A stretch of DNA of 64,000 nt, taken from Henckelia pumila (Eukaryota > Streptophyta > Magnoliopsida > Lamiales > Gesneriaceae). The position numbers and the translations under genes were made by a program. The notes beneath the pieces are model-generated. The model was given only the letters and a program-made list of their open reading frames with translations. It ran no database searches and was not told the DNA's origin. The stretch spans positions 156,171,361-156,235,360 of the forward strand of contig NC_133122.1 of assembly GCF_033568475.1 (NCBI RefSeq), given 5' to 3'. Positions 1,949 through 59,815 of the stretch are shown here, in pieces (position 1 is the stretch's first letter; each line of letters starts with the position of its first letter).

Positions 1949-3432
1949 TGATGTGTCCATATTTTCCTATGTTTAATTGAAATAAGTTGATATTATTCGA
2001 TTCATTTGAATTGATAAATTTGGTTTTATAGATATTAATCTTCGGTAGTGGTTTGATGTAGAAAAAGAGAAGGATTGAACAAAAGAGGAGCAAAAAGACA
2101 GAAGAATTGATCTGCGCAAGAATGAATTACGAATCAGAAATGATAAAAAAATCATTTTTAATTTTAGAGAGCTTAAAATCTTATCTCTACCATTCAAAAT
2201 AATGTTCAAGATGTTTTAAAGCTGGTGTCCAAATTTCAGCTCAATCCGACGGCTAGATCTTGAGATATGAAATTCTCAAAAACATTATACGCTAGAAAAA
2301 AAATGAGCTCGCTCGATCCGTCAAACTTGACGGATCGAGCAGCCAGAAGAGAAAAATTTCGGAAAATTTGGACAAAAAAATTCTGGTTCGATCCGTCAAC
2401 TTCAGCGGATCGAGCCAGCGGCGTAGTTTGGGAAAAAAAATTCAAAAAAAGGAAATTTTTATTTTGAGGACTCTAGTCTATATTTAAGACTTTTAATTCC
2501 GATTTTCAGTACCTATTATCAGAATTGGAGGCTTAGAACGTGGAGAATATCTTGGCGGCTAGGTTTCTTCTCTCTTTTCTTAGATTTAATTTTATTTCAT
2601 GAATTTTTCTAGAGAATTCATGAATATTGTTGGTTAAGTTTTAGAACTTGGTTAAGGAAGACGAACCCTTGAGTTTGTTTATTTGTGAGATTCAGTTTTC
2701 ATTGTTTAATTCTAATAGAGTATCAAGAGTTGTTTGGATTTGATTTCCATGCACATGTGTTTGATTGTTGGCGGGAATTCCTAATGATTTTTCATACAAA
2801 CTACTGCTAAATTAGAATTCAAATTCTTAATTGTTTGAGTCATCTGATTTGTGAAGCAACTTCAATTAATAATCGTCCGCTTGTGAGTTTATTAAATTAT
2901 AGGAAGAACAATTGAATAGATTAAATACATCCGCTTGTGTATGTGTTCTCTAGATTCATCAGTTTTACTAGTTTGTATGCTGCCTTAGATTTAAATCTAA
3001 TCGCTTGTATTGGATTGATTCATTTGTAAGGGTTAATTTAGAATGCTTGTGTCTAGTTAACTAAGATTAAGGTGAAACATGAATTTAATTTTCAATGATG
3101 AATATTTGATAGAATTAATTATTTTTAGATAATCAATGATCGAATGAATGATTTCAAGGGTGTAGTCGATCGATACCAAGGCTGGTTTTTAATTGATTTC
3201 TTTGTTATAATTTAATCTTGCATGATAGTTGATAGAATTCATTAAATATTGCTTTTAAATTTTTAATAGTTAATTCAAAACTCAAAACCCCATTTTATTT
3301 ATTTTCAGTATTTTTAAGAACACAATTAAATTTCACTTTTCTCGTGGGAACGATCTATACTCTCACTACTGCATATTTTATTTATCTAATTTGAGTTGGG
3401 TAATTTGGGCGCGACATGACTAAGCGCTACCA
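1949..3432 (+). repeat. 5' LTR of the plus-strand Athila-like element
   Basis: 1484 bp, paired with 19946-21419 (1474 bp). It contains the shared ~80-nt block (about 2191-2270) and hairpins (2304-2420), then a region with repeated 'CGCTTGT' (2875-3050), and ends CTCGTGGGAACGATC...CTACCA. The two LTRs differ by scattered substitutions and small indels, so the insertion is not recent. Confidence 0.93.
2191..2420 (+). repeat. Conserved ~80-nt block plus inverted-repeat hairpins (Athila 5' LTR)
   Basis: The block at 2191-2270 includes GTCCAAATTTCAGCTCAATC and CGACGGCTAGATC. It is followed by a perfect 30-bp palindrome at 2311-2340 (14-nt arms GCTCGATCCGTCAA around a 2-nt loop) and a second inverted repeat at 2384-2417 (arms about 12 nt with one mismatch). 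The 3' LTR copy is at 20181-20402. Closely similar blocks occur in unrelated elements at 13910, 33621 and 45831. Confidence 0.85.
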
Positions 3433-3437
3433 AATTT

Positions 3438-9691: not shown

Positions 9692-10666
9692 TTAAGGCAA
9701 AGTAGGACAATTTTTTGTAAGATGATCATGTGTATCACATATATGACAAACAATTTCTTGAACACTTTTTAATTGATCACTCTTTTTCATTTCTAATGAC
9801 TCAATTTTTCTTGCTAAAGATGCAAGTTTGGCTTGAATATCTACATCATCTTTAAGATGATAAATACCAACCCCATTTGTTGAATTATTGGTTTTACTTG
9901 GTGGTTCAATTGAGCCTATATTATCCCAATTTTGAGCATTTTCTGCTAATGAATCCAAATATTCCATAGCCTCATTTGGGTTTTTATCTTCAAAAGTTCC
10001 ATTACACATGAATTCTATCATTTGCCTATCTTTAGGTATTAAACCTTCATAAAAGTGAGAAATTATCCTCCATATTTCAAAACCATGATGTGGGCATGTA
10101 TTAAATAACTCTTTATATCTATCCCAACATTGATAAAATGTTTCCCCTTGTTTTTGAGTAAAATTTGTAATTTGTCTTTTAAAAGAGTTTGTTCTATGGG
10201 AAGGGAAATTTTTTTTAAGAAATTGTTGTTGCATTTCTTCCCATGATCTTATTGAACTTGATCTCAAATTTCGCAACCATGTTTTAGCTTTATCTTTTAA
10301 AGAAAAAGATAAAAGCTTTAATCGAACAATATCCATGCTACAATTTTGATCATTATAAGTGTTGCAAACCTCCTCAAATTCTCTTAAATGCAAATATGGA
10401 TTTTCAGAATCTAGTCCATGAAAATTTGGTAAAACTTGAATAATTTGAGGTTTAAAATTGAAATTAGACGCATCAGGAGGAAAAACTAAACAAGATGATG
10501 TACTAGTTCTTATTGGATTCATATGGTGCCTAAGTGTTCTTGGTTGTTCATGTTCTTGATTATTATTATTATTATTATCTTGATTATTAGAATTATCCTT
10601 CATGTTTAAAATATTTTCAAATACTCGAACAAGTCTACCACTTTGTTTACGACTCCAAACAATCAT
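9692..10666 (-). pseudogene. gag of the minus-strand Athila-like element (largely intact)
   Basis: A 324-codon frame starts 69 nt inside the primer site. Order: Asn-rich N-terminus (about 20-50), core Gag with PNFHGLDSENPYLHLREFEE and SFSLKDKAKTWLRNL (about 80-150), FPSHRTNSFKRQITNFTQKQ and CWDRYKELFNTCPHHG (about 155-200), then YEGLIPKDRQMIEFMCNGTF. Near the C-terminus there is a complete CCHC zinc knuckle, CHICDTHDHLTKNC. A stop after NCPTLP truncates the protein relative to the linker and protease that follow at 9691-8606. It would be a structural capsid/nucleocapsid protein. It is the best-preserved gag in the window, yet its element lacks all enzymes. Confidence 0.88.
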
Positions 10667-11520: not shown

Positions 11521-12435
11521 TGTTAGGAATTCAAGATCTAAGTTTCGGTGTTTGAAAAATTACTTAAGTCATCAATTGAAGAAGCAGATCAATTGAAGAA
11601 GCAGAAGAAGCAGATCTATGCACAAGAAAGCAGATCAAAGAAACATCATCTGGAAAGCAATCAAGTAAGCAGATCAATCAAGCAAGATCAAATGATTATG
11701 GAAGATCCTAGAAGATCAAAGAGCCGTTGTGCTAGAAGACAAAATCATTAAATTAAGATTTGAATGTTGGAGACAAAGTCAAATATTGGAGGCTTCTTTT
11801 GAGAAGATGTTGACAGCTCAACGGCTACCTTCTGGAGGCTATAAATACAACAGAGCTACACAAGAAAAGAACATACACGATCAGAAAGTTAAGAGCTTCA
11901 AATAGAAATCAGATCAGATTAATCAAGAACACACTTAGCATCATATCAGATCAAGTGAGGATCATTCGTGATGAGTTTATTCAGTTGTAAGATTGTACCA
12001 GATCAGTTGAGTGGTCTGTCAAAACACTATCTTTGTAACAAGGATCAGTTGAGGGCTGAGTTCTTGAGTGTCTAGGAGTTCTGAGATAGGAAGAGGTGTA
12101 AGTCCAATCTTGGATCGGATCTGTGCAAATTGTTTGTATAAGATCAAAGTCTTCTAGAAGAGAGTGAATCCTTCCGAGGTGGAAGAAGGGATGACGTAGG
12201 AGATTGAGCTCCGAACATCCAGAAACAAGTCATTGTGTTATTTCTCTTCTGCCCAACATGTTCACTCACTTCACAAATTCGACCAAGCCATTTGATCTGT
12301 GTTCAATCTGTTAATCAATCTCTTTCGCACTAATTTAAGTTGGTTGATTAACATAGACACATGAGAAAGACAAGAGTTCATTTACTAACCCATCTGAACT
12401 CCATATAACTAAGAAAGACATTTTCGATCCTAAAA
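11521..12435 (+). repeat. 5' LTR of the copia-type element
   Basis: 915 bp, rich in AGATCA/GATCAA units (11580-11710 and again 11880-12020). Paired with 15023-15937. Confidence 0.93.
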
Positions 12436-12437
12436 AG

Positions 12438-12449
12438 TGGTATCAAAGC
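12438..12449 (+). promoter_or_regulatory. Primer binding site, tRNA-iMet type
   Basis: TGGTATCAAAGC lies 2 nt after the LTR end. It matches the usual TGGTATCAGAGC primer site of plant copia elements with one change. Confidence 0.88.
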
Positions 12450-12480
12450 GAGGTACCTTCTCGTCTCTGAACATATTCAA

Positions 12481-13621
12481 ATGGCTGCATTCAGTGAGAT
12501 TGTTAAAAGCTTCTGGTACACCACCGTGGACAACTGCACTGCCAAAACTATTGAGACATGCTCCACTGCTAAGAATCTTTGGCAACAGTTGATCAAATTT
12601 GAAAATAATGAGGAGACTAAGCAGATCAAGTGTCCACTAATTGAAGATCTCAAAGAACCCTGCTGCTCAGATAGTTCCAAATCAAATGATGAAGAGAGCA
12701 CAAGTCAACCAATCCATCCATCCGACTTACAAGAAAGTTGCTCAACTAATCCAATTGCTTTTATTGAAGAATCTTGTTGTTCAGTGAGCACATCAATCTG
12801 ATGACAAAGATGAAGATAGCTGCCTTATGGCCAAAAGTGACCAACCATCTATCAGCAATCAATCATCAGATCAACTCTTCTCCAGTGAACAGGTATTTGA
12901 TTTTAACTCAGATGAATTTACACGAGAAGATTTAGAAAATGCATTACATGACATGAGTAATGAGTATCAACGACTGTGCTTAGAATTTGAGGAAGTTAAG
13001 GCCAAGAAAAATGATCTGTCGGACTGCTCAACTGAACCCAATTGGGAAACATCAGTTGAGAAAATCAGTCTGGAAGCAGAGATTGTCAAGCTTAAGACTG
13101 AAAATGATAAGCTACTAGTGGAATGTCAGCAGTTAAAGTCAAAAAACATAAAACTTACTGAACTGATAACCACATGGAATAAGTCCTCTGTTTTGTTGAC
13201 TGAGATGCAAGAGTCACAAAAGTCTTTTGGATACAAGACAAGTATCAGCTTTGATGACAAGGACTGCAAATCAACTGAGAAAAGTACTCAATCCTGTCTG
13301 GACAATAACACTTCAAATTATGTGAAATTTGTCAAGTCCAGCACGATAAATGAAAATATAGAACCTGATAATCATGTCAGTTCACCTATATCTCAACCAA
13401 AAACTCTTTACAATCGAGGTTTGGGATATGTGGAACCAGAGAGTTCTAACTCAAGCTGGATCAGGAAAAGAATAGTTCGGTCTGGATATGGTCAAGCAAG
13501 ACAAGACTCTATGAAGGTACAACATAGACCACCCTATTTCAAAAATAGATCCGTTCAAAAGAGATATTGGAGGCCTAACTTTTACAATCAATCTAGACAG
13601 ACATATCCAATGCACAAATGA
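12481..13621 (+). pseudogene. Degenerate copia gag with coiled-coil segment
   Basis: The first frame (12481-12801, 106 codons) begins MAAFSEIVKSFWYTTVDNC and contains ETCSTAKNLWQQL, reminiscent of the copia Gag (UBN2-type) region. After a stop the second frame (12827-13621, 264 codons) begins MAKSDQPS. It has FTREDLENALHDMSNEYQRL and a coiled coil (EAEIVKLKTENDKLLVECQQ), then LYNRGLGYVEPE and a basic tail. This order (Gag tail, coiled coil, 'GLGYVEP') is that of many plant copia polyproteins. The CCHC knuckle and protease should follow, but only a scrap like IKVWVPK (about 13722-13745) is seen before the non-coding 3' part. No enzyme domains remain. Confidence 0.65.
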
Positions 13622-13909
13622 CACAATGCATATCATATTTATCATTCACATACATATCATCAGCACACACGGCACAATATACAAACTTTATGGGACACTT
13701 TCAATGATCGACCTGTTAGATTAATCAAAGTTTGGGTTCCTAAAGTACTAATCCATCAAGGACCCACATAAGATATGGGTACCATAGCATATTTTTATTT
13801 GTATTTGCAGGTGACAAGTACTGAGAAGAATTGAGAAAGGAATTACAGTACAGCAAACTTCAGAAATTTATTAAGGACGTTAGATTCAACTATATCCAAT
13901 CTGCACCGT

Positions 13910-14165
13910 TCATAATAAAGTTTAAGATGTTTTAAAGCTGCTGTCCAAATTTTAGCTTGATCCGACGGATAGATTGTGAGATATGATGTTTTGACAATTT
14001 TCGCTCAGCAGAACAAGAAAGTAGCGCCCCTTGCTAGCGCTTCTAGCGCCCCTCAATAGCGCGATAGCGCTACTAGCGCCCCTTAGAAGCGCGATAGCGC
14101 TCCTAGCGCTCCTTGGAAGCGCGATAGCGCTTCAGTAGCGCTCCTCCAAAGCGCGATAATGCTGT
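13910..14165 (+). repeat. Conserved ~80-nt block plus AGCGC hairpin array (copia interior)
   Basis: The block at 13910-13990 shares GATGTTTTAAAGCTG, GTCCAAATTTTAGCTT and ATCCGACGG with the Athila LTR block at 2191. It is followed at 14028-14163 by an array of AGCGCGATAGCGCT inverted repeats (three full copies, one degenerate) separated by TAGCGCCCCT-like spacers. Here the cassette is internal to the element, not in the LTR. Confidence 0.85.
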
Positions 14166-14449
14166 TTCTACGAAGAGCATGCGAGCCCGCACCAGTCTTG
14201 GAGACTAGATGAAGAACTATGAAAAATAAAAGATCGATGGGATTTCATCTACATATAAAAGAGATTTTGAAGAGCACAAGAATACACCACACAACCCAAA
14301 ATTTGGAGAGAAACGCAACAGTTTGAGGGGGAATGAAGATTCTCTCTGGCATCTTAATTAAAGAAGAAAGAAGATCAGTCGAGAAGAAGAAAGAAGAACA
14401 GAAGAACTGAGCAAAGCAGATCAATAGACGCAAAAGGAGTCAGATCAAC

Positions 14450-14930
14450 TTGGCGGTAACATATCAACTCGAAGATACAAAGCAAGAGATAAGAATCCAG
14501 ATAAGTTGGAGCAGATCAGATCAGACGAAACATACCAGACCAGATCAAAGATCAATCAGACCAGATCAAAGATCATACAAGATCAGATTAAAGTTGGACC
14601 AGATCAACGTCAGATCAAATCAGATTGGACAAGACCAGACAAATCAAACCATACCAGATCAAAGTTCAACCAGATCAGACAAGATCAATCGAACCAGAAA
14701 ATATCAAAGTTCGAACCAGACCAGATTAAAGATCAACCATACAAGATCAAAATTTGACCAGAACAGATCAGCTGATCTCCAGAAACACTTAAAAAGGATC
14801 AGTTCAATATCACCAAAAAAGATCAATAAACCAGATCAATCAATTCATCCAAGTGAACACTTCATTTGGAATCACCTTTTAAGGGGGAACAGATTCAAAG
14901 AAAGTAAGAGCAGATCAAAGAACGACTAAA
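14450..14930 (+). repeat. AGATCA-rich tandem-like repeat region
   Basis: Dense degenerate repeats of CAGATCAAAGATCA/CCAGATCA type run for nearly 500 bp before the 3' LTR. They yield open frames in two phases (peptides full of DQTRS and RSDQ). Because the openness follows from the repeat, I do not call a protein. Related AGATCA units fill the element's LTRs. Confidence 0.75.
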
Positions 14931-15004
14931 AAGGGAAAGATAATCAGTTGATGCGATTGTCAAAAAGAGGAAAAATGACAGATAAATTGCTTAGTTTTAT
15001 CAAA

Positions 15005-15022
15005 CACCAAAAATGGGGAAAT
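15005..15022 (+). promoter_or_regulatory. Polypurine tract of the copia-type element
   Basis: CCAAAAATGGGGAAAT immediately precedes the 3' LTR at 15023, the standard place for plus-strand priming. Confidence 0.8.
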
Positions 15023-15937
15023 TGTTAGGAATTCAAGATCTAAGTTTCAATGTTTGAAAAATTACTTAAGTCATCAATTGAAGAAGCGGATCAATTGAAG
15101 AAGTAGAAGAAGCAGATCTATGCACAAGAAAGCAGATCAAATAAACATCATCTGGAAAGCAATCAAGTAAGCATATCAATCAAGCAAGATCAAATGATTA
15201 TGGGAGAGCCTAGAAGATCAAAGAGCCATTGTGCTAGAAGACAAAATTATTAAATGAAGATTTGAACGTTGGAGACAAAGTCAAATATTGGAGGCTTCTT
15301 TTGAGAAGATGTTGACAGCTCAACATCTACTTTCTGAAGGCAATAAATACAACAGAGCTACACAAGAAAAGAACATACACGATCAGAAAGTTAAGAGCTT
15401 CAAATAGCAATCAGATCAGATTAATCAAGCACACACTTAGCATCATATCAGATCAAGTGAGGATCATTCGTGCTGAGTTTATTCAGTTGTAAGATTGTAC
15501 CAGATCAGTTGAGTGGTCTGTTAAAACACTATCTTTGTAACAAGGATCAGTCGAGGGCTGAATTCTTGAGTGTCTAGGAGTTCTGAGATAGGCAGAGGTG
15601 TAAGTCCAATCTTGGATCGGATCTATGCAAATTGTTTGTATAAGATCAAAGTCTTCTAGAAGAGAGTGAATCCTTCCGAGGTGGAAGAAGGGGTGACGTA
15701 GGAGATTGAGCTCCGAACATCCAGAAACAAGTCATTGTGTTATTTCTCTTCTGCCCAACACGTTCACTCACTTCAAAAATTCGACCAAGCCATTTGATCT
15801 GTGTTCAATCTGTTAATCAATCTCTTCCGCACTGATTTAAGTTGGTTGATTAACATAGACACATGAGAAAGACAAGAGTTCATTTACTAACCCATCTGAA
15901 CTCCATGTAACTAAGAAAGACATTTTTGATCCTAACA
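15023..15937 (+). repeat. 3' LTR of the copia-type element
   Basis: 915 bp, same length as the 5' LTR and about 96% identical by eye. Followed by TSD TATTG. Confidence 0.93.
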
Positions 15938-16893: not shown

Positions 16894-17675
16894 AGGATTG
16901 ACCATACTACTTGCCTCCTGGATCCATCACCACCTGGGCAGAGATGAAGAGGATATTTATAAAGAAGTACTTTCCAGCTTCGAGAGCGGCAAACATTAGG
17001 AAGGAGATGTATGTCATCAAATAGTATACATGAGTCTCACTTCACGAGTATTGGGAGTGGTTCAAGAAGCTTTGTGCTAGCTGTCCGGAACACCAGATAA
17101 GTGAAAACATGTTAATTCAATATTGCTATGAAGGTTTGTTACCTCATGACTTGAATATGCTATATGCGGCCAGTGGAGGAGTTTTTGTGGACAAAACTTC
17201 AATCCAAGCAAGGAATTTGATCGAGAATATGGCTGTCAATTCTCAGCAATTTGGCACTAACAGGAGTGATCCAGCACCCAGACGGGGCAATGAGGTAAAT
17301 GTGTCTTCCCTTGAACAACAACTGATTGATATGACGTCTCTTGTGCGTCAAATGGTTGTAGGGAATGGACAAAATGTGAAGGTTTGCAGAATTTGCACTG
17401 CAAGGGGACATGCAACTGACATGTTTCCAACGCTTAAAGAGGAAACGAGCGAACAAGTCAATGCAGCTGGAGAATTTCCTGGGCCACTACAACAAAAGTA
17501 TGATCCTTACTCGAATACATTCAATCCAGGTTGGAAGGATCATCCCAAATTTAGATACGGAAATCCTTCGATGAACCAGCCTGCACCTCAAGTGCAGCTA
17601 AATAATCAAGCATATAGGCCACCGTATCCTCCACAACCACAACGTCCTCAAATCTCAATTCCTGGTGATTTTTAG
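16894..17675 (+). pseudogene. gag, C-terminal part (plus-strand Athila-like element)
   Basis: Continuation of the gag cut at 3953. The translation gives PYYLPPGSITTWAEMKRIF with a TGG-to-TGA stop just before it, then FIKKYFPASRAANIRKEM, a frameshift, and from 17109 LIQYCYEGLLPHDLNMLYAA and FVDKTSIQARNLIENMAVNS. A nucleocapsid-like CRICTARGHATDMF follows, in which the last zinc-binding Cys has become Phe. The tail is Pro/Gln-rich. The match to Athila-type Gag is clear, but the protein is broken in several places. Confidence 0.9.
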
Positions 17676-17746: not shown

Positions 17747-18600
17747 TTGAATACTCAGGTGGGGCAGTTGGCAACCACCATTAATAGGTTGGAGGCAAAT
17801 AATTCTAGCAGCTTACCATCACAGACAGTAGTGAATCCAAAGAAGAATGTGAGTGCAATCACTTTGATGAGTGAGAAGGAGTTGAAGGTCCATGAAGAGG
17901 TGGTACAAACACCCGCAAAGAAGAAAGAGGTGGAGGAATCCAAATTGGAAGAGAATGAAATAATTCAAGAAACACCGATGTAAGTTTCCTCCTTTTTCTG
18001 AGTATAAATCTGTAGATCCTTTTCCCTTAGCATTGAAAGAGTCTAGGAAGGATGAAGGAATTAAGGGGTTGTATGAAATTTTTCGTAGATGTGAGGTAAA
18101 TATTCCTTTGTTAGATGCTATCAAACAAGTACCTCAATATGCTTAATTTCTAAAAGAGTTATGTACTGTGAACAGAAAACACAAACTGAAGGGGTGCCAG
18201 AAAGTTGAATTGGGAGAACATGTCTCTGCAGTCATTCAAAGAAGGTACCCACAAAATGCAAGGATCTAGGTATGCTTTCGATTCCTTGTAAAATAGGAGA
18301 TGTTCAGTTTGAGACAACCATGTTAGATTCAGGAGCATCGATCAATGTCATGTCATACTCTGTTTATGCTTCTTTAAAACTAGGGCTTTTGAATGAAACT
18401 GCAATTGTTATCCAGATGGCTGATAGATATACTATTCATCCTAGGGGCGTGTTAGAGGATGTTTTTGTGCAAGTTGGTAATTTGGTCTTTCCAGCTGATT
18501 TTTATGTTCTTTACATGAAAAACAATGATTTGAATAGTCCAATTTTGCTAGGAAGACCATTTTTGAAAACTTCGATGCACTCTCACTCTGGAGTTTGATG
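17747..18600 (+). pseudogene. gag C-terminal linker and retropepsin (plus-strand Athila-like element)
   Basis: After a Glu/Lys-rich linker (17747-17983) and a frameshift, the sequence reads LYEIFRRCEVNIPLLDAIKQ and FLKELCTVNRK, then another frameshift. At 18272-18598 comes the protease: MLSIPCKIGDVQFETTMLDS with active-site DSGASINVM intact, HPRGVLEDVFVQVGNLVFPA, and ILLGRPFLKTS. It then shifts frame before the expected continuation (TLEFDGKIVKF). The protease would process Gag-Pol, but the surrounding frame is destroyed. Confidence 0.88.
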
Positions 18601-19945: not shown

Positions 19946-21419
19946 TGATGTGCCCATATTTTTCTATGTTTAATTAGAATAAGTTGCTATAATTCGATGC
20001 ATTTGAATTGATAAATTTGGTTTTATAGATATTAATCTTCGGTAGTGGTTTGATGTAGAAAAAGAGAAGGATTGAACAAAAGAGGAGCAAAAGGACAGAA
20101 GAATTGTTCTGCGCAAGAATGAATTACAGAGCAGCAATGATAAAAAAAATCATTTTTAATTTTAGAAAGCTTCAAATCAAATCTTCACTGTTCAAAATGA
20201 AGTTCAAGATGGTTTGAAGCAGCTGTCCAAATTTCAGCTCAATCCGACGGCTAGATCTCGAGATATGAAATTTCAAAAATGTTGCGCGCTGGAAAAGAAT
20301 GAGCTCGCTCGATCCGTCGAGCGGCCAAAAGAGAAAAATTTCTGAAAATTTGGACAGAGAAATTTTGGCTCGATCCGTCAAATTTCGCGGATCGAGCCAG
20401 CTGCGTAGTTCAGGAAAAAAATTCAGAAAAAGGAAATTTTTATTTTGAGGACTCTAGTCTATATTTAAGACTTTCATTTCCAATTTTCAATATCTATTAT
20501 CAGACTTGGAGGCTTATAACGTGGAGAATATCTTGGTGGCTAGGTTTCTTCTCTTTTTTCTTAGATTTAATTTTATTTCATGAATTTTTATAGAGAATTC
20601 ATGAATATTGTTGGCTAAGTTTTAAAACTTGGTTGAGGAAGAAGAACCCTTGAGTTTGTTTATTTGTGAGATTCAGTTTTCATTGTTTAATTCTAATTGA
20701 GTATCAAGAGTTGTTTGGATTTGATTGCCATTCGTATGTGTTTGATTTGATTGTTGGCGGGAATTTCTAATGATTTTTCATACAAACTACTGCTAAATTA
20801 GAATTCAAATCCGTAATTATTTGAATCATATGATTTGTGAAACAACTTCAATTAATAATCGTCCGCTTGTGAGTTTATTAAATTGTAGGAACAACAATTG
20901 ACTAGATTTTATACATCCGCTTGTGTATGTGTTGTCAAGATTCATCAGTTTTACTAGTTTGTATGCTGCATTGGATTTAAATATAATCGCTTGTATTAGG
21001 TTGATTCATTGATAAGGGTTAATTTAGAACGTTTGTGTCTAGTTAACTAAGATTAAGGTGAAACAGAAATTTAATTTTCAATGATGAATATTCGATAGAA
21101 TTAATTATTTTTAGATAATCAATGATCGAATGAATGATTTTAAGGGTGTAGTCGATCGATACCAAGACTTGTTTTTAATTAATTTCTTCGTTATAATTTA
21201 ATCTTGCATGATAGTTGATAGAATTTCATTAAATATTGCTTTTAAATTTTTAATAGTTAATTCAAAACTCAAAACCCCATTTTATCTATTTTCATTATTT
21301 TTAAGAACACACTTAAATTTTACTTTCCTCGTGGGAACGATCTCTACTCTCACTACTGCATATTTTATTTATCTAATTTGAGTTGGGTAATTTGGGCGCA
21401 ACACGACTAAGAGTTACCA
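19946..21419 (+). repeat. 3' LTR of the plus-strand Athila-like element
   Basis: 1474 bp. It holds the conserved block (20181-20275) and hairpins (20302-20402). Relative to the 5' LTR the first palindrome has lost about 13 nt of one arm and loop, while the second (20371-20401, arms GGCTCGATCCG/CGGATCGAGCC) is intact. Ends TACCA, followed by TSD AATTA. Confidence 0.93.
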
Positions 21420-21424
21420 AATTA

Positions 21425-25099: not shown

Positions 25100-25205
25100 C
25101 AGCTAAGAGAGAGTATGAATACTTAAAGCCGCATAAAGGCAACAGTTACGAAACACCACCGAAAACACACATAATTAACTCGCGCCAGTGCACAATTAAC
25201 CACAA

Positions 25206-25485
25206 ATTCGCGCAAGGAAACAACACTACTACACAAACAGGCGAACAATTTGTGCATGGAAACTAAACATTATTACACAAACGAACAAGTGAAATACACC
25301 ATATCATGAACAATTTTGAAAAAAAATTTAAGGACACACATCAAAATTCGCGCAAGGAAACAACACTACTACACAAACAGGCGAACAATTTGTGCATGGA
25401 AACTAAACATTATTACACAAACGAACAAGTGAAATACACCATATCATGAACAATTTTGAAAAAAAATTTAAGGACACACATCAAA
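25206..25485. repeat. 140-bp tandem duplication
   Basis: Two head-to-tail copies of a 140-bp unit (25206-25345 and 25346-25485) that I could not tell apart by eye. The unit begins ATTCGCGCAAGGAAAC. Confidence 0.92.
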
Positions 25486-33426: not shown

Positions 33427-34406
33427 TGATATGAATCTAGGAGGTTCTCGAAGTTTCATATTGTTCCCAAAAGTGTCTCTTAATTTTCCATCAAGAATTG
33501 AAGGGTTTGAAATTCATAGGAATCAAGTTGGAGAGCATGGGAGCCAAGTTGGAATGCATGGAGCTCGAGTTGGAGGACTGAAATTATTTGAAAACTTTAG
33601 AGACTTTCAAATCCAATCTCCACCGTCAAAAATGTATTTTAGGATGTTATGAAGCAATGGTTAAAATTTCAGGTCGATCCAACGATTAGAACTCGAGATA
33701 TTATTTTTGCAAGGAAATACGTTCAGTTTCGAATCAACTTTCGAATAGGAACGGACCTAGGCACGGGGTCCGTGCACCTGAAGCTCGTCATCGTAAATTT
33801 GAAGCTCGAATCGCCGTGGGCACACGGACATATGTTCGTCCCCTTATCCAGGGTCGTGCACACATACATTGCGGCGTGTTTGTGCATGTTTCGGCGGATT
33901 TGTGATATTTTTGATATTATTCCTATTTTTTGAGTCTTTTAAGCCTATTAGGAAACTTTTGGTGATATCTTTTGATATCTTTTGCATTATTTTGCGTTAT
34001 CTTTTATTATTTTGTAGTTGTATTATAAATACAACATATACATTCATTATTGAATAACATAGTTCATATTATTGATTTTTATCAGTGTAAAATTCTCTCT
34101 AGAATTTTATTAAAGCTTTTGCTTTGTCAAAAATAAAACTTATCAAAGTTTAATTACTTTGTGGCGTTTGTTAATTGATTATCTTTGTGGATTGTCATAA
34201 AAAAAAAATTTTGATGGTTCCGTTGTGATTAATTGTTTATCGTCGTGATTATCTGTTGCTAGTTTCGTTGTAAACTAGAGGTGGATATCCGAAAACTTAC
34301 TTGTTTAAAAGATTGGGACAAAATTAAAGAATATTTTTGCTATTGGATTGAGGTTACTATTTTAATATAGTCGTGTTTGCTTTTCATGCATCCAAGATTC
34401 TCATCA
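33427..34406 (+). repeat. 5' LTR of the inner Ty3 element
   Basis: 980 bp. It contains the conserved ~80-nt block at 33621-33710 (AAAATTTCAGGTCGATCC, ACTCGAGATATT) followed by GGAC/GTCC-rich inverted repeats (33757-33860). Confidence 0.92.
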
Positions 34407-34408
34407 TT

Positions 34409-34420
34409 TGGTATCAGAGC
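34409..34420 (+). promoter_or_regulatory. Primer binding site, tRNA-iMet
   Basis: TGGTATCAGAGC, 2 nt after the LTR. Confidence 0.92.
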
Positions 34421-35635: not shown

Positions 35636-36257
35636 CTTGATGAAAAATCTTATATTGTACATGATGTGGTTGATGGTGGTGTTAATATTGGAAAATGTGA
35701 AATAGTAGGTGAGTCTTTATGTGTTAATGAGTCATCTAAAATTTTTGTGGTAGATGAGAGTCCTATGGATGTTCATAGTGGGACTAGTAATTTGTTGGAT
35801 GAGTCTTGTAATCTTGCTTTTCAATTGAGTCCAAAAGAATTTCTTGGAGATCAATTGAAAATTCAAAATTTGAGTGATATGGCTGAAAAAAGAGTGATGA
35901 AAAAAGTGAGATAGCCATAGAAAAAAAAAGAAAAGGAAAAAGAAAAAGAAAAAGAAAAAGAAAAATAAATAATTGAGGCCGAAAGAAATAGTTTACAAAA
36001 AAGTGAGATGACCTTTGAGAGAAAAAAAAGAGAAAAGAAAAAGAGAGGAAAGAGACCAAAAAATAAGATATTATGGTCCAAAATTGTGAGGTTAAAAAAT
36101 TTGTGCAATTGAATAAGATCTTTAAACTACTTATGTACAAAGAGGTTTTATCTCATTGTGATGAAATAGCCGGTTCAATCCCGAGCAGTATTCTTTCTTC
36201 TTTGCAGGTTGTGAAAGATGTTGGGATGAGTAAGCAAAGGAGATCTAATGTTAAAAA
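35636..36257 (+). pseudogene. Protease-to-RT linker remnant of the inner Ty3 element
   Basis: Several frames carry acidic linker sequence, then a purine-only stretch (35916-35970, GAAAAA units). At 36073-36257 comes LLMYKEVLSHCDEIAGSIPS and ILSSLQVVKDV, which corresponds to the segment just before RT ('PSGLPP') in Ty3 pol. The CACTA element interrupts here at 36261. No protease active site is visible. Confidence 0.6.
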
Positions 36258-36274
36258 AGTCACTACAAGAAAAA

Positions 36275-36580
36275 TTGAAAACGACAACGGATAAAATCCG
36301 TTGTCGTAGGGGGGTTTAAAACCGTTGTAACTGTTGGTGTTGTAAAAAGCATGCCCAACGACAACAGTTTATATCCGTTGTCTTTGGAGACATACCACAA
36401 TGGTTTTGCAACAGTTTATATCCGTTGTCTTTGGAGGCATACGACAACGGTTCTACAATAGTTTGAATCCGTTGTCTTTTGAGGCTTACGACAACGGTTT
36501 TGCAACAGTTTAAATCCATTGTCTTTGGAGACATACGACAACGGTTTTGCAACAGGTTAAATCCGTTGTCGTTTCTCAAA
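36275..36580. repeat. CACTA subterminal repeats, left
   Basis: About four tandem copies of a roughly 47-bp unit, each with CCGTTGTCTTTGGAG and ACGACAACGG-type motifs, preceded by the inverted repeat ACAACGGATAAAATCCGTTGT (about 36283-36303). Such arrays bind the element's DNA-binding protein in this superfamily. Confidence 0.9.
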
Positions 36581-38270
36581 AAAAAAACAAAAAAAAATTA
36601 ATATACAAATTTTCAATATTATAAATCAATCAAAATTTAATATTTCGAAAATAAAATTTAATATACATTTTTCAGTATTACAAATCACTCAAAATTCGAA
36701 TTCTAAATCAATGCATACTTGAAAATAGAGCTATGAACTAATGATCTTGATAAACTTGAAACCCTCCTTTCACAATCTTCAATCTTCAATCTTGCTACCT
36801 TGCTGGATAATTCAAATGTAGCAATCTCAGTTATAAGGTTATATTTTTCGAATGATTCAATATAAGTTATAAACAATATCAATTATAAGAACAATACAAA
36901 TTTAGCAAAACAACATGATAATCTCAATGCATCCCATCAAAATTACATCTAACCAAAGCATTATAAAATAAAACTTTCCATTTCCTCTAAATTTACTTAA
37001 CCAAGATAAATTATATACGAACAACAAATTCATGAAATCAATTAATAAATATGAAAGAAGATTCGATCTTCCATCTTTTGGAAAGATGGAAAATATGAAT
37101 TTTCCTCTTAAAGAAGATTCGAACTTCACTTGACTGTGAAGTGAACTCCCAATCATCATCGATTGTACTACCCCCCCATTCGATGGAATCAATTAAGGTC
37201 ATCACAGATGAAGACATAGTTATAAATTCAACAAGTTATATAGCATAGACAAAAGAACCACGAATAATCGAATATTTCCAATATGTGATAAACACATAAA
37301 AGTCTTATCATAAAGAAATATGCAAATCCTAGTAGTTAACTCTCGTAGTGACAAATATGATACACACCCATCTTCTTTGGACATGCCAAACTCACCCAAA
37401 TTGTCTCAACTATTAATAAATGTCAAACTAAGCTAAAGATTTTTGTTTTTGTTCATTAACTTGTAAGTTGTTACATTATTTATAATAGTTTATAAGAACA
37501 ATTAATGAAAATACAGAATTATTAAAAATTTAGAATACACACAGGCATTAGAATATGTAATATATTCTCTAAATCCTAAGTTCCATTAAGATTACAGTGT
37601 TTCAACTTAAGTAACTATGCAATTGATTATAATACTCTACCATTGAAAAAACATTTTTACTAATCATTATCCTTCCACTATTCTGAAGCAAATTAAACTA
37701 CGTTAGCAAATGCGTAAAGTGTGTCGCATGAAAAAATCTTATCCTTGGAGCACACCACAATGAGATGGAATGAAAGAAATTGTTGAATTCTCCTACGTAT
37801 AGTGTGATTAGACTTCCTAACACAAGTTTGACACTTCCTTCAAACATTACGCTGCTAATTAGCATACTTTCCATCATTTAAAAACTCCATGCAAAAGTTA
37901 AACAATAATGTAATTTACACAACGGTCTGCTTAACCTTCCCCTGTCATACAAAATTTTAAAGCTTTTATCAAATTGCATTCAAACAAATGAACTATGTAG
38001 GTTTCCAAAGCCATTTGAGGACAATTTCATGCATGTCTATGTTTTTACCGAAGAAAGTATTCAAAATGTCACCCCTTAGGCTATATGAATTATTAAAAGA
38101 AAACAATTCCTGTCCATGAACCATGACCTATATTGCTAGGACAGAAGAAAATTACGTAGTATTTCAGTGTTACACAATTTCCTAATAGCTAAATATACAA
38201 GTAATGGACTCAAAACCTGACTAATCAATGCTAGAAAGAACTACAAGAAGAAAAGGCGAAGAGAAGTAGA
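36581..38270. other. CACTA interior without identifiable coding sequence
   Basis: AT-rich. On the minus strand near 36850-36730 a short open piece (TFELSSKVARLKIEDCERR, then VSSLSRSLVHSS) could be another captured exon, but I cannot name it. Otherwise nothing is recognised. Confidence 0.35.
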
Positions 38271-38290
38271 GGACTACCCATAACACCAAC

Positions 38291-38755
38291 CTCTTTTGTC
38301 ATCAAGATGCCCTTTAGCCATAGCAAGTATTTCATTTCTATTTTTACCCTCTACATGTGTCATGTCCTGAGGAAACAAATGTATATCTTTTAGCACTGCT
38401 TGAAGAAAAAACAGTTCTTAGAAGAAACTTAATTATTTAAGAAATCGTACCGGTATAAGAAAGTGAGGAGAGTTTAGATAAGCATTCCTATAATGTTCTA
38501 TACAAGCTTCCTTTGTCTTTGTCCCAACATGCTCCGGAACTTCTGCCCAGTTACACATTCCTTACATTTCAATCCCCTGCTAAACAAACATTTAATGAGA
38601 CAAAAAACAAAGCTAAGATTTTCAAGAGAAAAGGGTGAGGCTTTAAAGATCAAGGGTCTGATAAACACACAAAAGAAGTAATAGATCACCTCCAGAAGTA
38701 GCATTTCTTCATCAGCATTCCATTCTGGACATATGAGAGGAAAGGATAATATGTC
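38291..38755 (-). pseudogene. ADA2: Captured ADA2 gene fragment (three exons, two introns)
   Basis: Exon A 38755-38690 encodes DILSFPLICPEWNADEEMLL plus LE. Exon B 38576-38451 encodes GIEM, a stop, then GMCNWAEVPEHVGTKTKEAC and IEHYRNAYLNSPHFLIP. Exon C 38366-38291 encodes DMTHVEGKNRNEILAMAKGH and so on. This is the SANT (Myb-like) domain region of plant ADA2/TADA2, the adaptor that links GCN5 acetyltransferase to SAGA. Splice sites are intact (AG at 38757-38756, GTGATC, GCAG, GTACGA, CTCAG), so the piece was captured as DNA, introns included. A TAC/TAT-to-TAA change kills exon B. The ZZ finger before and SWIRM domain after are absent. Antisense or chimeric transcripts could touch the parental ADA2. 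Confidence 0.9.
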
Positions 38756-38924
38756 CTATTAAAATTACACTTTGAAGACCATCAACATTCAGCAATGTGA
38801 GCAGGTCATCACTCAGCTTTAACAAATAATAACATTAATTATATGTAACAGAAACACGAGAAAAGATTTGATGGAAAATTCAGCACCATCAATCTACTTA
38901 AGCAAAAGCTAAAAAGAAAACAAC

Positions 38925-40428
38925 CTGATCGCCATCAGCACACAAAACTATGTGGCCTGAATCATGAATTTGAGGCAGGTCATGGACTTGAAGCCTCGTT
39001 TTCTTTTCAAGAATGAAAAAAGCTACACTAACTTGTTGAAGAAACGGAAGTCGTTGATGGTGAATCGGATCCCACCTTGCTTTCTGCAAGGCACTCTGCA
39101 GTGAAACAGATCATGTATATAATACACTTGTTCATGTAAAAGCTAAAAGTAACTACTTTTTGGTATATATGATTTTAATTATTGTTAACCGGTGAAAGTT
39201 GACGGGGAAGATTCCAGCTCGATACTGGGCAATTTTAAGGAACTTGGGCATGACGAGATCGAATGTGTCATGGGAGGATTGCACCAGCAAACATTATTGT
39301 TGGAAAATTTATTTCGTATTTGCTGGAAAATTTAAATAATTTTTGTCTGTTATATGTACCTATCTCCTCTCTCTCTTTTGTTTACAAATTTTTGAAATGT
39401 TATATTGATTCAAAGTAAATTGAAGTGGATAATACTTTTCAGTGCTCTTTTTGTTGCATAGCAGTTAATACTAGCATGGAGGAACAAACTATATATGTGC
39501 TTGCATAGTTACAGAGAGCCTAGCAGCCAACATAGATACATCAACAAACAAAAATCACAGTTCACCTCTGTTTCTCTATGTTATAACAATACAAAATTTG
39601 ACATACATATCAGGATGGTTGCTCTAAGAGTTCCCTTACTCAATGGATTATACTGTATAATTACATTACAAGACACTAGCTTAGACGTGAACCAAGTTGT
39701 TGCTTAAATTAGACACTTGCCTGAACAAAATTGTACTCACAATGTGGCAAGCTACAAGAAACTAAAATAAACGATGCAAACCTAAGAGTTTTGTCTTTCA
39801 ATACACTCGGCGAATATCGCGGAACAAATGTGCTCATGTAACTCAAATCTCACTCATATTTCTAAGCTTTGGACCTTCCTACATAATAGGATTTTTACCT
39901 TTTTACAGTTCAGCTATTGTTTAGTATTGTTTAGATCACACTGGTCAAGGTCTACGAGTGAAAAAATGGGCTAACCATGAAATCGACAGCTCCGTAGTTC
40001 AGAGCGAGAAGCGTGTAATTAGAGAAGTCCATCATTATGAGGATGTTTTTGAATAAAGCCTTTTGCGCGGCCTCAATTTCTAAGATATTTTCTCTTTATG
40101 ATGGTCGAATCAGAACATTAAGGTATTGCTAAGAAATTTCTAAGAGATTGAATGCACACAATGTTTGTTCAGTAAAGGATATGAAATACTTATTCAAAAT
40201 CAAACAGTTCCTTCCAGCCTTATGATTCTTTCCAGCTCATTGAAAACATTTCATTCTCTGCATGGTCCACAAAATGATATATGTTTATGCATAAACATAT
40301 TCAATGTTTTATATTGCTAATTTCAGAAAGCCTGGACGATTTTACCTGTTTTTCAATTTCAACAGCAGAAGCAGCAAGCCTCCTTTTCAATATCTGTTTA
40401 TCATCCTCACAGGTTTCGGTCTCAGTAT
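38925..40428 (-). pseudogene. Unidentified captured exons
   Basis: Three exon-like blocks have matching splice signals. 40428-40346 includes CEDDKQILKRRLAASAVEIE between TTTGTTTAG and GTAAAA. 40079-39976 includes AAQKALFKNILIMMDFSNYT and LLALNYGAVDFM between TCTTAG and GTTAGC. 39095-38925 is 57 open codons including KARWDPIHHQRLPFLQQVSV and GHIVLCADGDQ between CTGCAG and GTTG. Same strand as the ADA2 and RPS28 pieces. I do not recognise the parent gene or genes. The regular spacing and intact splice sites point to further captured host sequence. Confidence 0.45.
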
Positions 40429-40545
40429 CTAAACAAAACAACAAAAAGATATGTTTCTAAAATTCATACTAGAAAACTATGAAAAACAATTATAAAGCAC
40501 TGAAATTAGAATGCATTTCCCGGCCAGGAAAAAAAATCAGAGTGC

Positions 40546-40743
40546 TCAACGCAATCGGCGAGCTTCTCTTTCAGACTCGAAGAGAGTGAGAACATCACCC
40601 TATCTAACAGGTCACTTGAAAATTCTCATGATAAATCGGTTTTGGTCATCAATAAAATTGACTCTCACTTTGGTCACATGCCCATGGGAGCCGGTTCTTC
40701 CAATCACCTTCACCACTATGGCATGCTTGATTTGGGATTCCAT
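40546..40743 (-). pseudogene. RPS28: Captured ribosomal protein eS28 gene copy
   Basis: ATG at 40743 reads [20 protein letters not shown], then [21 protein letters not shown]-stop-PVR-stop-GD, and ends TLFESEREARRLR with TGA at 40546. At 65 codons it has the family's full length, and the diagnostic DDQNRFIMR and ESEREARRLR are intact. Two premature stops (Gly to TGA, Glu to TAG) disable it. eS28 is a small-subunit protein at the mRNA exit site. A 5' leader with an apparent intron lies upstream (41490-40775), so capture was at the DNA level. Confidence 0.93.
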
Positions 40744-40774
40744 TTTCTCTTCAGAAGCCAAAAAAGTGCTGAAA

Positions 40775-41820
40775 GTGAGTAGTGAATATTGAATAACCAG
40801 TAATTAGTAACAGCTCAATACTAAACAACATTACAATTTTTTTCATCATTAATCAGAAATTAGATTCTCCACAGTTGTAGCATTCTAAAAACGGATACTT
40901 AGCTGCACATCGAACAAGTGACAAGAAAGATCCAAATACATTTAATGTCGATAGTAATAAACAAAAAAAAAACTAACAGATCTCGGGATTCCCTTAGGCT
41001 TGCTGAAATATTTCAGGGGTATAATTGGAGTACTCTCATCTTCTAAAGATGAGTGATGTTCAAGGCCCACGGCAGAAGGGTAATAATAAGAAAATCAAAC
41101 AATCCTTCACGATTTCAACATCATAATTTTTAATATTTAAGATATAATTAAAAGTTCGAAGTCAATATTTAAAAACAAGCTCAAATCCCATTAAAATATC
41201 TATTTTTAAGATCCAAACGACCACCGACAAATCCAAAACTAAAATCAATCTATAGAAAATCCAGAATAATCTCAAATCCCAAATCATTTAAACCACCGAC
41301 ACCATTATCTGAATCAAACAAAATGAAATAAATCGTATAAGAATACAGATCCATGAATCAATCACGCAAAAATAGTGATATAAAAAAATGGATCGAGAAA
41401 ATAAAAATTATTGATAAAAAAACTCAAATTCAAACACATAGATCCGAAAATAGAACAAAATAAACAACAAAACGAAAGATTGGAGATAGAAAAATACCTT
41501 AAACTGGTAGGATAAGAGAAAATTTAAAGTGACAAAAGATTAGGTTAGAGATTTTAAGATTAGGAGAAGGGATTCTTATGTCACGAGAACGTACGAAAGC
41601 TGCTTGCTATACCTCTACCTCCTTTTCTTCTCCCAGACCACGAGAGCGTACAAAATATATCATCTCAAAGTGCCGGAGGATGTATGTAGGGTGGCCCTCT
41701 GCCAAGCTTGCCTAGACAAAGCAAGGAAAGAAAAGGGATGTGAGAATAAGAGCGACGACGTAAGGAAAGGAGCGGATGGAGAGAAAAGAGGCAAATGATT
41801 TGGTTAGGGCTTGGCTTTTT
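40775..41820 (-). other. Likely captured RPS28 promoter, leader exon and 5'-UTR intron
   Basis: On the minus strand AAGCCCTAACC (about 41808-41798) resembles the telo-box of ribosomal protein promoters. It is followed by pyrimidine-rich leader sequence (CTCTTATCCTACC near 41515), a donor AAG/GTATTT at about 41501, a T-rich intron, and an acceptor CTTTCAG at about 40772. This layout is usual for plant ribosomal protein genes. The assignment is inferred from position and composition. Confidence 0.45.
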
Positions 41821-41874
41821 TTTCTTAAAAGGGGTATACTATATGCGTTTATCATAAAAAAAAATCTTTTTGAA

Positions 41875-42090
41875 AAAGCAAAGACAACGGTTTTAATTAA
41901 CCGTTGTCGTAGGTCATAGAAAAACCCGCTCATCGACAACGGTTTTAAAAACCGTTGTCTTTGACATATATAAGACAACGGTTTTTTAACCATTGTCGTT
42001 TTCCATTACAATACGGTCAACGACAACGGTTTTCGTAAAAACCGTTGTTAAAAGTCAAAATACAATAGTTTGTGTATAAAACCGTTGTCT
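41875..42090. repeat. CACTA subterminal repeats, right
   Basis: At least four short inverted repeats of the type GACAACGGTTTT...AAAACCGTTGTC, in opposite orientation to the left array. Confidence 0.9.
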
Positions 42091-42132
42091 TTTTAGTGTG
42101 GTTAATTAGCATATTTGTTGTAGTGAGTAAGC

Positions 42133-42741
42133 ATGACTGGACAATGTAAAGTTGATCACACACAAGGTGGGGTTGGAAGTTTGCAAATTGTTCCCTTTGT
42201 GAGGTATGGTTTAAATTCAAGTTTAAAATACAAATCCAATGTAAAATTCCAAAGGTATGAACTCAATTCAATGTTGCATGGATTTAATTACTTTGTTGAA
42301 GGATTTGAGAAAGTGTTAGCTATGAATTATGCTTTGATTTTAAATCTTGATGTTAATTCTCTTGAGTTTGTGCATACTACAAGAGTTGGTGATTTGGTTT
42401 ATGTTGATATGTGCGATTGTTGCATGAATAGCATAGGTGGGAAGTCCTATTTGCTTGATTGGCTAGTGATGACTTTTGGGCTAACTAATGTGCGTAATAC
42501 TTTCATGGGATGGATGGATTATGTTTTGCATGCATCTATGGGTAAATTTTTTGTGGTATACTTTGATTATGTCATAGTATATAACAAAATTTTTAATGGG
42601 AATGTTGAACATTTGATACTTGTGTTATTTACGCATAATGATGGGAATTTAAAAGTGTGTGTATTTTGCACAAGAGAATTTATTTTATTTGTTTATGGTA
42701 TGAGTCTTCAAGGAAAAAGAGTTCTTGATGGAAAGGTGTAA
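42133..42741 (+). pseudogene. RT remnant of the inner Ty3 element
   Basis: The frame contains WLVMTFGLTNVRNTFMGWMD, VVYFDYVIVYNKI and HLILVLFTHNDGNLKVCVF. This corresponds to the RT core around the catalytic box; the expected Y-x-D-D is here YFDY, so the second Asp is lost. The N-terminal half is out of frame and partly missing. Interrupted downstream at 42778 by a solo LTR. Confidence 0.82.
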
Positions 42742-45641: not shown

Positions 45642-46605
45642 TAATATGAATCTAGGAGGTTCTCGAAGTTTCATATTGTTTTCAAAAGTGTCTCTTAATT
45701 TTCCATCAAGAATTGAAGGGTTTGGAATTCATGAGAATCAAGTTGGAGAGCATGGGAGCCAAGTTGGAATGCATGGAGCTTGAGTTGGAGGACTGAAATT
45801 ATTTGGAAACTGTAGAGACATACAAATCAAATCTCCACCGTCAAAAATGTAGTTTAGGATGTTATGAAGCTACAGTTAAAATTTCAGGTTGATCCAACGG
45901 CTAGAACTTGATTTATGATTTTTGCAAAGAAATACGTTCAGTTTCGAACCAACTTTCGAACAGGCACGGACCTAGGCACGGGATCCGTGCACCTGAAGCT
46001 CGTCATCGTCAATTTTAAGCTCGAATCATCATGGGCACACAGACCTATGTCCGGTCCCTTATCCAAGGTCCGTGCATACACACAATGCGGCGTGTTTGGG
46101 CATGTTTCGGCGAATTTGTGATATTTTTGATATTATTCCTATTTTTTGAGTTTTTTAAGCCTATTAGGAAACTTTTGGTGATATCTTTTGATATATTTTG
46201 CATTATTTTGCGTTATCTTTTATTATTTTATAGTTGTATTATAAATACAACATATACATTCATTATTGAATAACATAGTTCATATTATTGATTTTTATCA
46301 GTGTAAAATTCTCTCTAGAATTTTATTGAAGCTTTTGATTTGTCAAAGTTTAATTACTTTGTGGCGTCTGTCAATTGATTATCTTCGTGGATTGTCAGAA
46401 ACAAGTTTTCTGAAGGTTTTGTTGTGATTAATTGTTTATCCTCGTGATTATCTGTTGCTAGTTTCGTTGTAAGCAAGAGGTGGATATCCGAAAACTTACT
46501 TGTTTAAAAGATCAGGATAAAATTAAAGAATATTTTTGCTATTGGATTGAGGGTACGATTTTAATGTAGTCGTATTTGCTTTTCATGCATCCACGATTCG
46601 CATCA
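45642..46605 (+). repeat. 3' LTR of the inner Ty3 element
   Basis: 964 bp. Conserved block 45831-45920, then GCACGGA...TCCGTGC inverted repeats (45964-45990). Ends CGCATCA and is followed directly by the second 58-bp repeat. Confidence 0.92.
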
Positions 46606-46663
46606 TTTGAATTGTAGACGCTTCAAATCTGAACAATTTACAATAAGAACTTCATATCAAAAT
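46606..46663. repeat. 58-bp direct repeat flanking a Ty3 element, right copy
   Basis: Same as 33369-33426 with one difference (TTTACAA for TCTACAA). After it the Tekay LTR continues normally. Confidence 0.92.
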
Positions 46664-54712: not shown

Positions 54713-55006
54713 CTGGTGCTTGTCGAGGAGGCATATCTGATATTCAAATAGATTAGTGCACAATACAACAATATATCAGATTCAACCATTCTGTTTCAGT
54801 CCCCCCTCTGATTGGCATAATCAAGCAGTCTCAGGAGATCGAGTTCTGATCAATAGTCAAGTCTGATATAGTTTCCAAATAAACATACTTGCATCAAAGA
54901 TAATCATATAGTCAAATGAGAAACTCAATTTCATGCGAGAAAAATAAATCAATCAGACTCGATCTACCCCACTCATCTATTCTAGTTCAGTCCAAGAACT
55001 AACTTC

Positions 55007-58298: not shown

Positions 58299-59815
58299 GA
58301 TCAGTTATGTAAATCAAAATCACAGGGAGGGATGGGATTTAGAGATTTCCGGAAATTCAACCAAGCACTTATTGCCAAACAACGATGGAGATTAATCCAA
58401 AATCCTACATCTCTTCTCGCAAGGTTGTTAAGAGCTAAATATTTTCCTACATCTGATTTTTTAGATGCTTCATTGGGAAATACTCCATCATACGTTTGGA
58501 GAAGCTTGATTTGGGGACGTGACTTACTTAAAAAAAGACTAAGATGGAAGATTGGTCCTGGTCATTTAATCCGAGTTTTCAAAGATTCATGGTTCTTGAG
58601 GCCTCTCACTTTTAAACCAATCACAATTCCAGCTTCAACTTTTGAGAATTTAAGAGTGAGTGATCTTCAAATAGAATCGGGCCATTGGAATTGGGCTTTA
58701 ATTTATCAAATCTTCTAGCAAATAGATATGGCAGAATTTAAAAAATTTCCCATCTTTGCTTTATCTGGCATTGATAAGTTGATTTGGCATTATGGTTCTA
58801 ACGATGTTTACTCGGTTAAATCAGGTTATTTTTTGGCAATGGAAGATGGGGTTGAGACGAGTGTTGGCTGTTCGAGTGGCATGTCTCGGTACTTTCGAAA
58901 GCTTTGGCACTTGAATGTTCAAAGCAAGATCAAGGTTTTTTATGGAAAGCCATCCATGCTATATTGACTACTCGATTTCATCTTGCTGCGAGGGGTATCA
59001 AAGTGGACAGTGTTTGCCCACTTTGTGATAAATATCCAGAATATAGCTTTCATGCTCTATGGCTATGCATTGGTGCGCAGGAGGTGTGGGAAAATTCAGC
59101 TGTATGGCCGATTTTATCAAGTTTCAAAGGAAAATATTATTTTGATCTTTGGCAGTGGGTAATACTTTCGGGAAATGCGGATGATTTAGGTTGTTTTGCT
59201 ATGATCTTCTGGAGTATTTGGTTGGCCAGAAACCAACTTTTTCACTTGGGTACGAAGCTACAACCTATTGATGTGGTTTCTCGAGCGAGTTTTCTTTGGA
59301 CACAATTCCTATCATGTCAGCGTGTTGATGCACCAAAGATTATGATTTCTACTCCTCTTTTTTGGCAAACTCCCCCAGCAGGTACTATAAAGATCAACGT
59401 CGATGCGGCTGTGGTGAATGGTTCTTCGAGAGTGGGTTTGGGTGTAGTTGTTAGGGATGATCAGGGAGTTGTGTTAATAGCTTTCACCAAGACTTTGGAA
59501 GGCTATTTTTCGGTTCATTTAGCAGAGCTCTTGACAGTTAGGGAAGGATTGCTTTTGGCTTCTCAACAATCTTGGAATCATGTTATCATTGAAACCGATG
59601 CGAGTAATGTGGCTAAATCCATTACTGGTTCACTTTGTCTTGTTGAGGATGAAAGTATTGTTTCCTTCATCCATCAACTCAGCTCAAGATTCTCAAGTTT
59701 TCGAGTTCAACTGTGTCGCCGCAATGCTAATGGAGTTGCACATATCTTGGCTGCTGATGGTTTAACATTGAGTGTGGACTTCTTGTATAAGAATTGTTTG
59801 TCCTTTAAAGATTAG
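58299..59815 (+). pseudogene. LINE ORF2 C-terminal part: zinc finger and RNase H domain
   Basis: 58332-58718 gives GFRDFRKFNQALIAKQRWRL and RSLIWGRDLLKKRLRWKIG. A stop and a frameshift near 58930 follow. 58904-59815 is then open for 303 codons: FHLAARGIKVDSVCPLCDKY (zf-RVT, Cys pair and following His/Cys), then KINVDAAVVNGSSRVGLGVV, HLAELLTVREGLLLA and VIIETDASNVAKS. The catalytic Asp/Glu/Asp of the plant L1 RNase H are all present. It ends with a TAG at 59813 and an A-run. Confidence 0.9.

Follow-up and report, generated by a model that had tools for sequence, protein, structure and literature searches.

Nested elements and a block shared by three of them

The 64,000-nt stretch of Henckelia pumila DNA analysed here (the window; NC_133122.1, positions 156,171,361 to 156,235,360) is by self-comparison a nest of elements, three of which carry a common block of about 110 nt that reaches up to about 175 nt when an upstream shoulder is counted as part of the module. 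Element A, which we take from its primer-binding site TGGCGCCGTTGCCGGGG to be an Athila-like Ty3 element, encloses a minus-strand element whose long terminal repeat (LTR) is split by element Z, and Z appears to be derived from a copia element. Element Q, classed as Ty3-type, lies within an LTR of an outer element, P/R (32378-56997), which is presumably chromovirus-like. The elements and the five copies of the block are as follows.

1949-3436 (+): 5' LTR of A, paired with the 3' LTR at 19946-21423, 91% identical
2178-2289 (+): block copy 1, in the 5' LTR of A; about 2118-2286 with the upstream shoulder
11521-15936 (+, start approximate): element Z, LTRs 96.5% alike, duplication TATTG on both sides
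13894-14003 (+): block copy 3, in the interior of Z; module 13824-13997
20176-20286 (+): block copy 2, in the 3' LTR of A
33430-34410 (+, approximate): 5' LTR of Q, paired with the 3' LTR at about 45644-46609; primer site TTTGGTATCAGAGC
33611-33721 (+): block copy 4, in the 5' LTR of Q
45826-45936 (+): block copy 5, in the 3' LTR of Q

All five places named by an earlier, sequence-only reading of the window were recovered, with a block of about 110 nt at each, and a profile search of the window gave no sixth copy (next match E 0.15). Because the window profile was trained on its own matches, models of single families were trained as well; each recovers the other families, the weakest match being that of the Z model to one Q copy (1.4e-8). 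In the block, A and Z are 78-80% identical, and Q is 66-72% identical to A and 67-72% identical to Z; on the 3' side of the block the sequences of the window families align at 30-36%. Indels between families are few in the module, and its upstream extent varies among families. The Ty3-type LTRs have a layout of about 180-230 nt of other sequence from the LTR start, the block, mostly CpG-rich palindromic boxes and, often, a TATA-like site. That random LTRs would match equally well, which had been named as a sign against conservation, was not the case in the window, where the profile search detected no block in the LTRs of P/R or of the split minus-strand element. An Rfam search of the window returned nothing at the block and a single match elsewhere; the plant C/D snoRNA snoR71 matches at 10080-10190 (+) with 44.7 bits, above its gathering score, within the internal region of the minus-strand element that A encloses.

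A 26-mer from the core of the block is found at 3,940 places with at most two mismatches in the 885-Mb genome, compared to 0 for the reversed pattern and 28 for a control 26-mer taken from a part of the A LTR that the module does not cover. The elements of the window fall into separate families, each of them dispersed, and the block therefore did not arise by one insertion or gene conversion within this locus. Twenty further loci (N) were picked by an exact 26-mer within the block, a selection that was not applied to A, Z and Q of the window. Among 23 loci (the 20 N loci plus A, Z and Q, one each), 252 of 253 pairs match in the module, 153 upstream of it and 93 downstream, and grouping at a 40% threshold yields one group for the module, six for the upstream part and ten for the downstream part. 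Among 25 representatives (20 N, two A, two Q and one Z), between-family identity is 0.777 in the block, 0.514 and 0.608 in the upstream flanks and 0.477 and 0.445 in the downstream flanks, and it drops just downstream of the block to the shuffled-block baseline of 0.466. The conservation across element classes proposed from the letters alone stands.

Two known regulatory elements were tried as the identity of the module and rejected: the mitosis-specific activator (MSA) enhancer of MYB3R (TCYAACGGYYA), present in the module of only 4 of 91 copies, and the dehydration-responsive element/C-repeat (DRE/CRT) stress element (core RCCGAC), present in 0 of 91. A first degenerate pattern matched a GC-rich, phage-like contig (L001) that has no BLAST match to the window, and this match was attributed to chance. 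Further block patterns gave no match in viral contigs or in bacterial and archaeal genome contigs, which are collections without plants, and a protein search that used an antisense frame of the module to stand in for other plants gave no candidate, which says little.

Palindromic boxes downstream of the block

The boxes and TATA-like sites of the window elements are as follows.

2311-2340 (+): palindromic box 1 of A, with 14-nt perfect arms
2388-2413 (+): second hairpin of the 5' LTR of A
2478-2488 (+): TATA-like ctatatttaag of A, 3' of the boxes, missed by the strict TATA pattern
14022-14158 (+): GCGC box array of Z
14252-14261 (+): TATA-like catataaaag of Z, after the GCGC array
20306-20323 and 20366-20399 (+): hairpins of the 3' LTR of A
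from about 33748 (+): boxes of Q, then TATA-like tattataaatac at 34021-34032
55116-55205 (-): palindromic GCTCGCTCGAGCGAGC boxes adjoining TTATAAAA, in the P/R LTR that has no detectable block

Palindromes are present downstream of the block in 81 of 91 copies (A 7/8, Q 32/33, Z 24/30, N 18/20), with means of 1.43-1.95 per copy versus 0.24-0.59 in shuffles; 35 of the 91 copies reach p 0.05 singly (A 3, Q 21, Z 4, N 7). The ratio of observed to expected CpG is 1.02-1.52 downstream of the block and 0.21-0.88 upstream. Of 26 stretches (25 places, as one locus of LTR family D, described below, was counted twice, as L078 and L097), 18 have a match to a strict TATA pattern within about 480 nt downstream, compared to 3.4 expected, and neither A nor D has one; the looser TATAWA occurs in the first 250 nt downstream in 25 of 91 copies.

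The sequence-only reading also held that the hairpins turn over beside a constant block. Their stems do change between families, but some share words with unrelated LTRs: the box word GCTCGCTCGA is common to A, ten of the N loci and the block-less P/R. Sharing of 10-mers exceeds all of 300 shuffles only between P/R and N (69 versus a maximum of 33); it does not for Z and N (18 versus 27) or A and N (18 versus 21), and Q and N share none. By eye, stems such as GCTCGATCCGTC and ACGGACC contain CGG or CCG, and GCTCGCTCGAGCGAGC and AGCGCGATAGCGCT do not. A reversed P/R-type LTR-like fragment at 54050-54720, in the P/R leader, has three hairpins of the CTCGCTCGATCGG type.

Element Z as an apparent chimera, and its neighbours

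The gag-like frame of Z lies as follows.

12788-13621 (+): gag-like open reading frame (ORF) of Z; aligned part, residues 8-219, at about 12809-13444

This ORF matches two copia-type proteins of Primulina huaijiensis (Lamiales), with E 1.0e-20 and 37% identity to P0001 over the aligned part. P0001 has a zinc knuckle and Pol_BBD above the Pfam cut-off, Retrotran_gag_2 (copia gag) below it, and the sequence WYLDSGCSRHM after its gag part; Z itself has no Pfam domain at the cut-off. The stretch from 13694 to 13831, which translates to KVWVPK...LYLQVTSTEKN with one internal stop, is taken by us to be a gag-pol spacer of the copia kind, and the module begins at 13824. No pol domain, and thus no protease-integrase-reverse transcriptase series in copia order, was found in the three ORFs of at least 120 amino acids, and the ORF after the module (14411-14929) has no Pfam match. 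Because a copia-type gag is matched and no pol domain was found, Z is classed from its sequence as apparently copia-derived and non-autonomous; a likeness to Sireviruses is our presumption.

Over about 175 nt (13824-13997), the module of Z aligns with the module in L097. There the module is part of a 1,480-nt solo LTR (L097:2762-4241) that has the duplication TCTAC and interrupts an Athila-like pol gene. The family of this LTR (D) is repeated: 40 of 5,533 candidates were scored, all covering nearly the whole 551-nt query, and nine same-strand pairs lie 5.2 kb apart, as expected for the two LTRs of one element. Z and D share another short stretch 3' of the boxes (score 32 versus the best of 25 in 300 shuffles), which is weak since a segment of Q scored 29 in the same comparison. 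Each of the 30 fetched matches of the Z block also resembles Z beyond the block. Z thus looks like a chimera in which gag-like sequence is followed by a captured piece of Ty3-type U3, with pol not found, and no pol-bearing partner of it was seen. The occurrence of the block in LTRs and in an interior had been posed as a puzzle that needed exchange of the module or strong selection; the positions do differ, the interior of Z probably holds a captured U3 piece where pol is missing, and some exchange does seem to be needed for this copia-type element. A Z-type copy (L017/L071) has sequence 5' of the module unlike that of the other Z copies inspected, with a break near the module start. ORFs that by eye resemble copia-type pol lie at L097:5753-8000 (-), beside an Athila-like element in another nest.

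In A, the primer site TGGCGCCGTTGCCGG adjoins the LTR, a gag fragment (17034-17675) lies under the Pfam cut-off and an aspartyl protease (18209-18598) above it. Q is assigned to the Ty3 type on its gag domain (PF03732, above the cut-off) and a weak reverse transcriptase fragment (42127-42741), which matches the reverse transcriptase of P/R at 6e-9, an Athila-like one from elsewhere in the genome at 0.039 and the solved Ty3 structure 4ol8 at E 0.011, with no Pfam match at E up to 5. A probable insertion in Q at about 36200-42070, with 47-nt tandem units and hairpins on ACAACGG/CCGTTGT, has repeats that we take to resemble CACTA subterminal repeats. Divergence of LTR pairs within single insertions is 0.036-0.080 (Kimura two-parameter, K2P), which at a rate of 1.3e-8 substitutions per site per year dates the insertions of A, Z and Q to about 3.0, 1.4 and 3.1 million years.

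A proposed shared promoter core and the alternatives to it

With moderate confidence, the block may be read as a promoter core that evolves slowly, part of a composite U3 promoter that is used by several Ty3-type LTR families in Henckelia pumila and was captured by a copia element through recombination; a promoter function is what we infer. Because indels are few, no RNA fold is evident in the block and its downstream edge is sharp, host DNA-binding proteins that read the module at fixed spacing are most likely what keeps it conserved, and the palindromic boxes beside this core would be the fast-turnover part of the promoter. In Z, recombination, probably by template switching between two co-packaged RNAs, would have joined a copia gag region to a Ty3-type LTR module with its boxes and TATA-like site, pol being lost, and the chimera would have multiplied afterwards. 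Selection on the module together with exchange between families would allow it to outlive its surroundings; in Q it may have been gained either by exchange or by descent. What weighs against this account is that the N loci were selected by a 26-mer of the block, and their share of the contrast between block and flanks is inflated for that reason.

An unlikely alternative is that the cassette acts in RNA, close to the 3' end of the genomic transcript, in dimerisation, packaging, export or first-strand transfer. In all three elements (A, Q and Z) the cassette comes after the coding sequence that was recognised, as U3 of the 3' LTR in the first two and in the 3' part of the interior of Z, positions that are alike in RNA, and the box segments fold better than shuffles in four of five copies (z -7.68 for A at 2290-2420, -3.88, -2.88 for Z and -3.01 for Q copy 5; the fifth, -0.62). 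The conserved part, however, does so in none of five (z -0.66 to +1.01), and the packaging or dimerisation role suggested for the block in the sequence-only reading is for this reason unsupported, with the folding comparison that it proposed favouring the boxes and not the block. Moreover, the hairpins are the variable part, two Q copies (L061, L066) retain the block with CA/TG repeats as their sole palindromes in place of Q boxes, and TATA-like sites often come after the module.

Nor is it likely that selection played no part and that one piece of U3, too young to have decayed, was passed on by successive exchanges or gene conversions in the fairly recent past. Exchange is needed for Z in any case, the unrelated P/R LTR has box words in common with the N loci, and within family A the block is no better conserved than the rest (0.865 versus 0.867). 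Within Q and Z the corresponding values are 0.881 versus 0.770 and 0.931 versus 0.841, all three families being sampled through loci found via the block and so biased. Against recent spread, the block differs by 20-34% between window families, far more than the two LTRs of one insertion differ, and the module is therefore older than these insertions; between families the flanks have decayed to background while the module has few indels.

A module that serves as a target of host silencing, or as a decoy against it, rather than as an activator is quite improbable: CpG-rich variable islands in LTRs have been proposed to help Del elements escape control (PMC4029996), but a silencing target would be expected to diversify and the conserved part does the opposite. 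Independent insertion of a small mobile element (a miniature inverted-repeat transposable element, a short interspersed nuclear element or similar) in each family would account for the unrelated hosts and the two types of position, but is very improbable, as by eye the block ends have no terminal inverted repeats or target duplications, the position is similar in four LTR types, the upstream extent varies by family and Rfam has no match at the block.

Several known systems resemble the promoter core and boxes proposed here, each compared as far as the accessible part of the cited source goes. Sireviruses have family-specific palindromic boxes (RM), mostly with a CGG-CCG core and in many copies, that form CpG islands upstream of the LTR TATA box and in nine elements also occur internally, ahead of env (Bousios et al. 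2010, PMC2829016). The repeated palindromic U3 boxes that form a CpG-rich region here are similar, but RM boxes are treated there as specific to Sireviruses (copia) and described without a long conserved neighbour, whereas the present boxes occur in the Ty3-type LTRs of A, Q and P/R and follow a 110-nt block. LTRs of Del (Ty3) likewise have a variable-length, poorly conserved CpG-rich 5' region, but no conserved block beside it is described, and no CpG island is reported for eudicot Del (PMC4029996). U3 of the Tnt1 superfamily evolves as modules with a history distinct from that of the coding part (PMC1838419), within one copia superfamily, whereas the module here is common to two Ty3-type lineages and an element derived from copia. 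Profile models of LTRs find conservation at the ends, the TATA box and the polyadenylation signal, with U3 much less conserved apart from TATA (PMC3601003), the opposite of a 110-nt U3 block common to several clades. Non-autonomous endogenous pararetroviruses are reported to undergo concerted evolution of non-coding regulatory sequences (PMC5491270); they too are non-autonomous with shared regulatory sequence, but are not LTR retrotransposons. No report of such a block common to superfamilies was recognised in the literature searched, which covered part of the field, and a text search for short strings of the block found no papers. What appears to be new is that a long conserved module accompanies palindromic boxes in Ty3-type LTRs and seems to have been captured by the copia-derived Z.

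That a module of 110-175 nt persists in several LTR families while the sequence around it is replaced, and seems to have passed from a Ty3-type LTR into a copia-derived element, points to a single host factor recognised by many transposon families. It also suggests that a common control switch serves these elements and moved between them at least once. It raises the testable questions of which protein binds the module and whether the families that share it switch on together. More tentatively, in a proposal that we rate somewhat short of even, different LTR superfamilies here would build their promoters from a common stock, in which a constant core module is combined with swappable palindromic boxes. 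RNA-level recombination would carry these parts between Ty3-type and copia elements, and unrelated elements would then obey the same host regulator and compete or cooperate through it. The module may also help to trace recombination across LTR superfamilies, which is otherwise difficult to demonstrate, as the coding parts of different superfamilies can scarcely be aligned.

Elsewhere in the window, a perfect tandem duplication of 142 nt occupies 25204-25485 (copies 25204-25345 and 25344-25485, 100% identical), and an ORF at 58856-59815 (+) with RNase H-like (PF13456) and zf-RVT domains is presumably a remnant of a long interspersed nuclear element. The 885-Mb genome lies mostly in four contigs of 183-234 Mb, an indication that its chromosomes are few and large.
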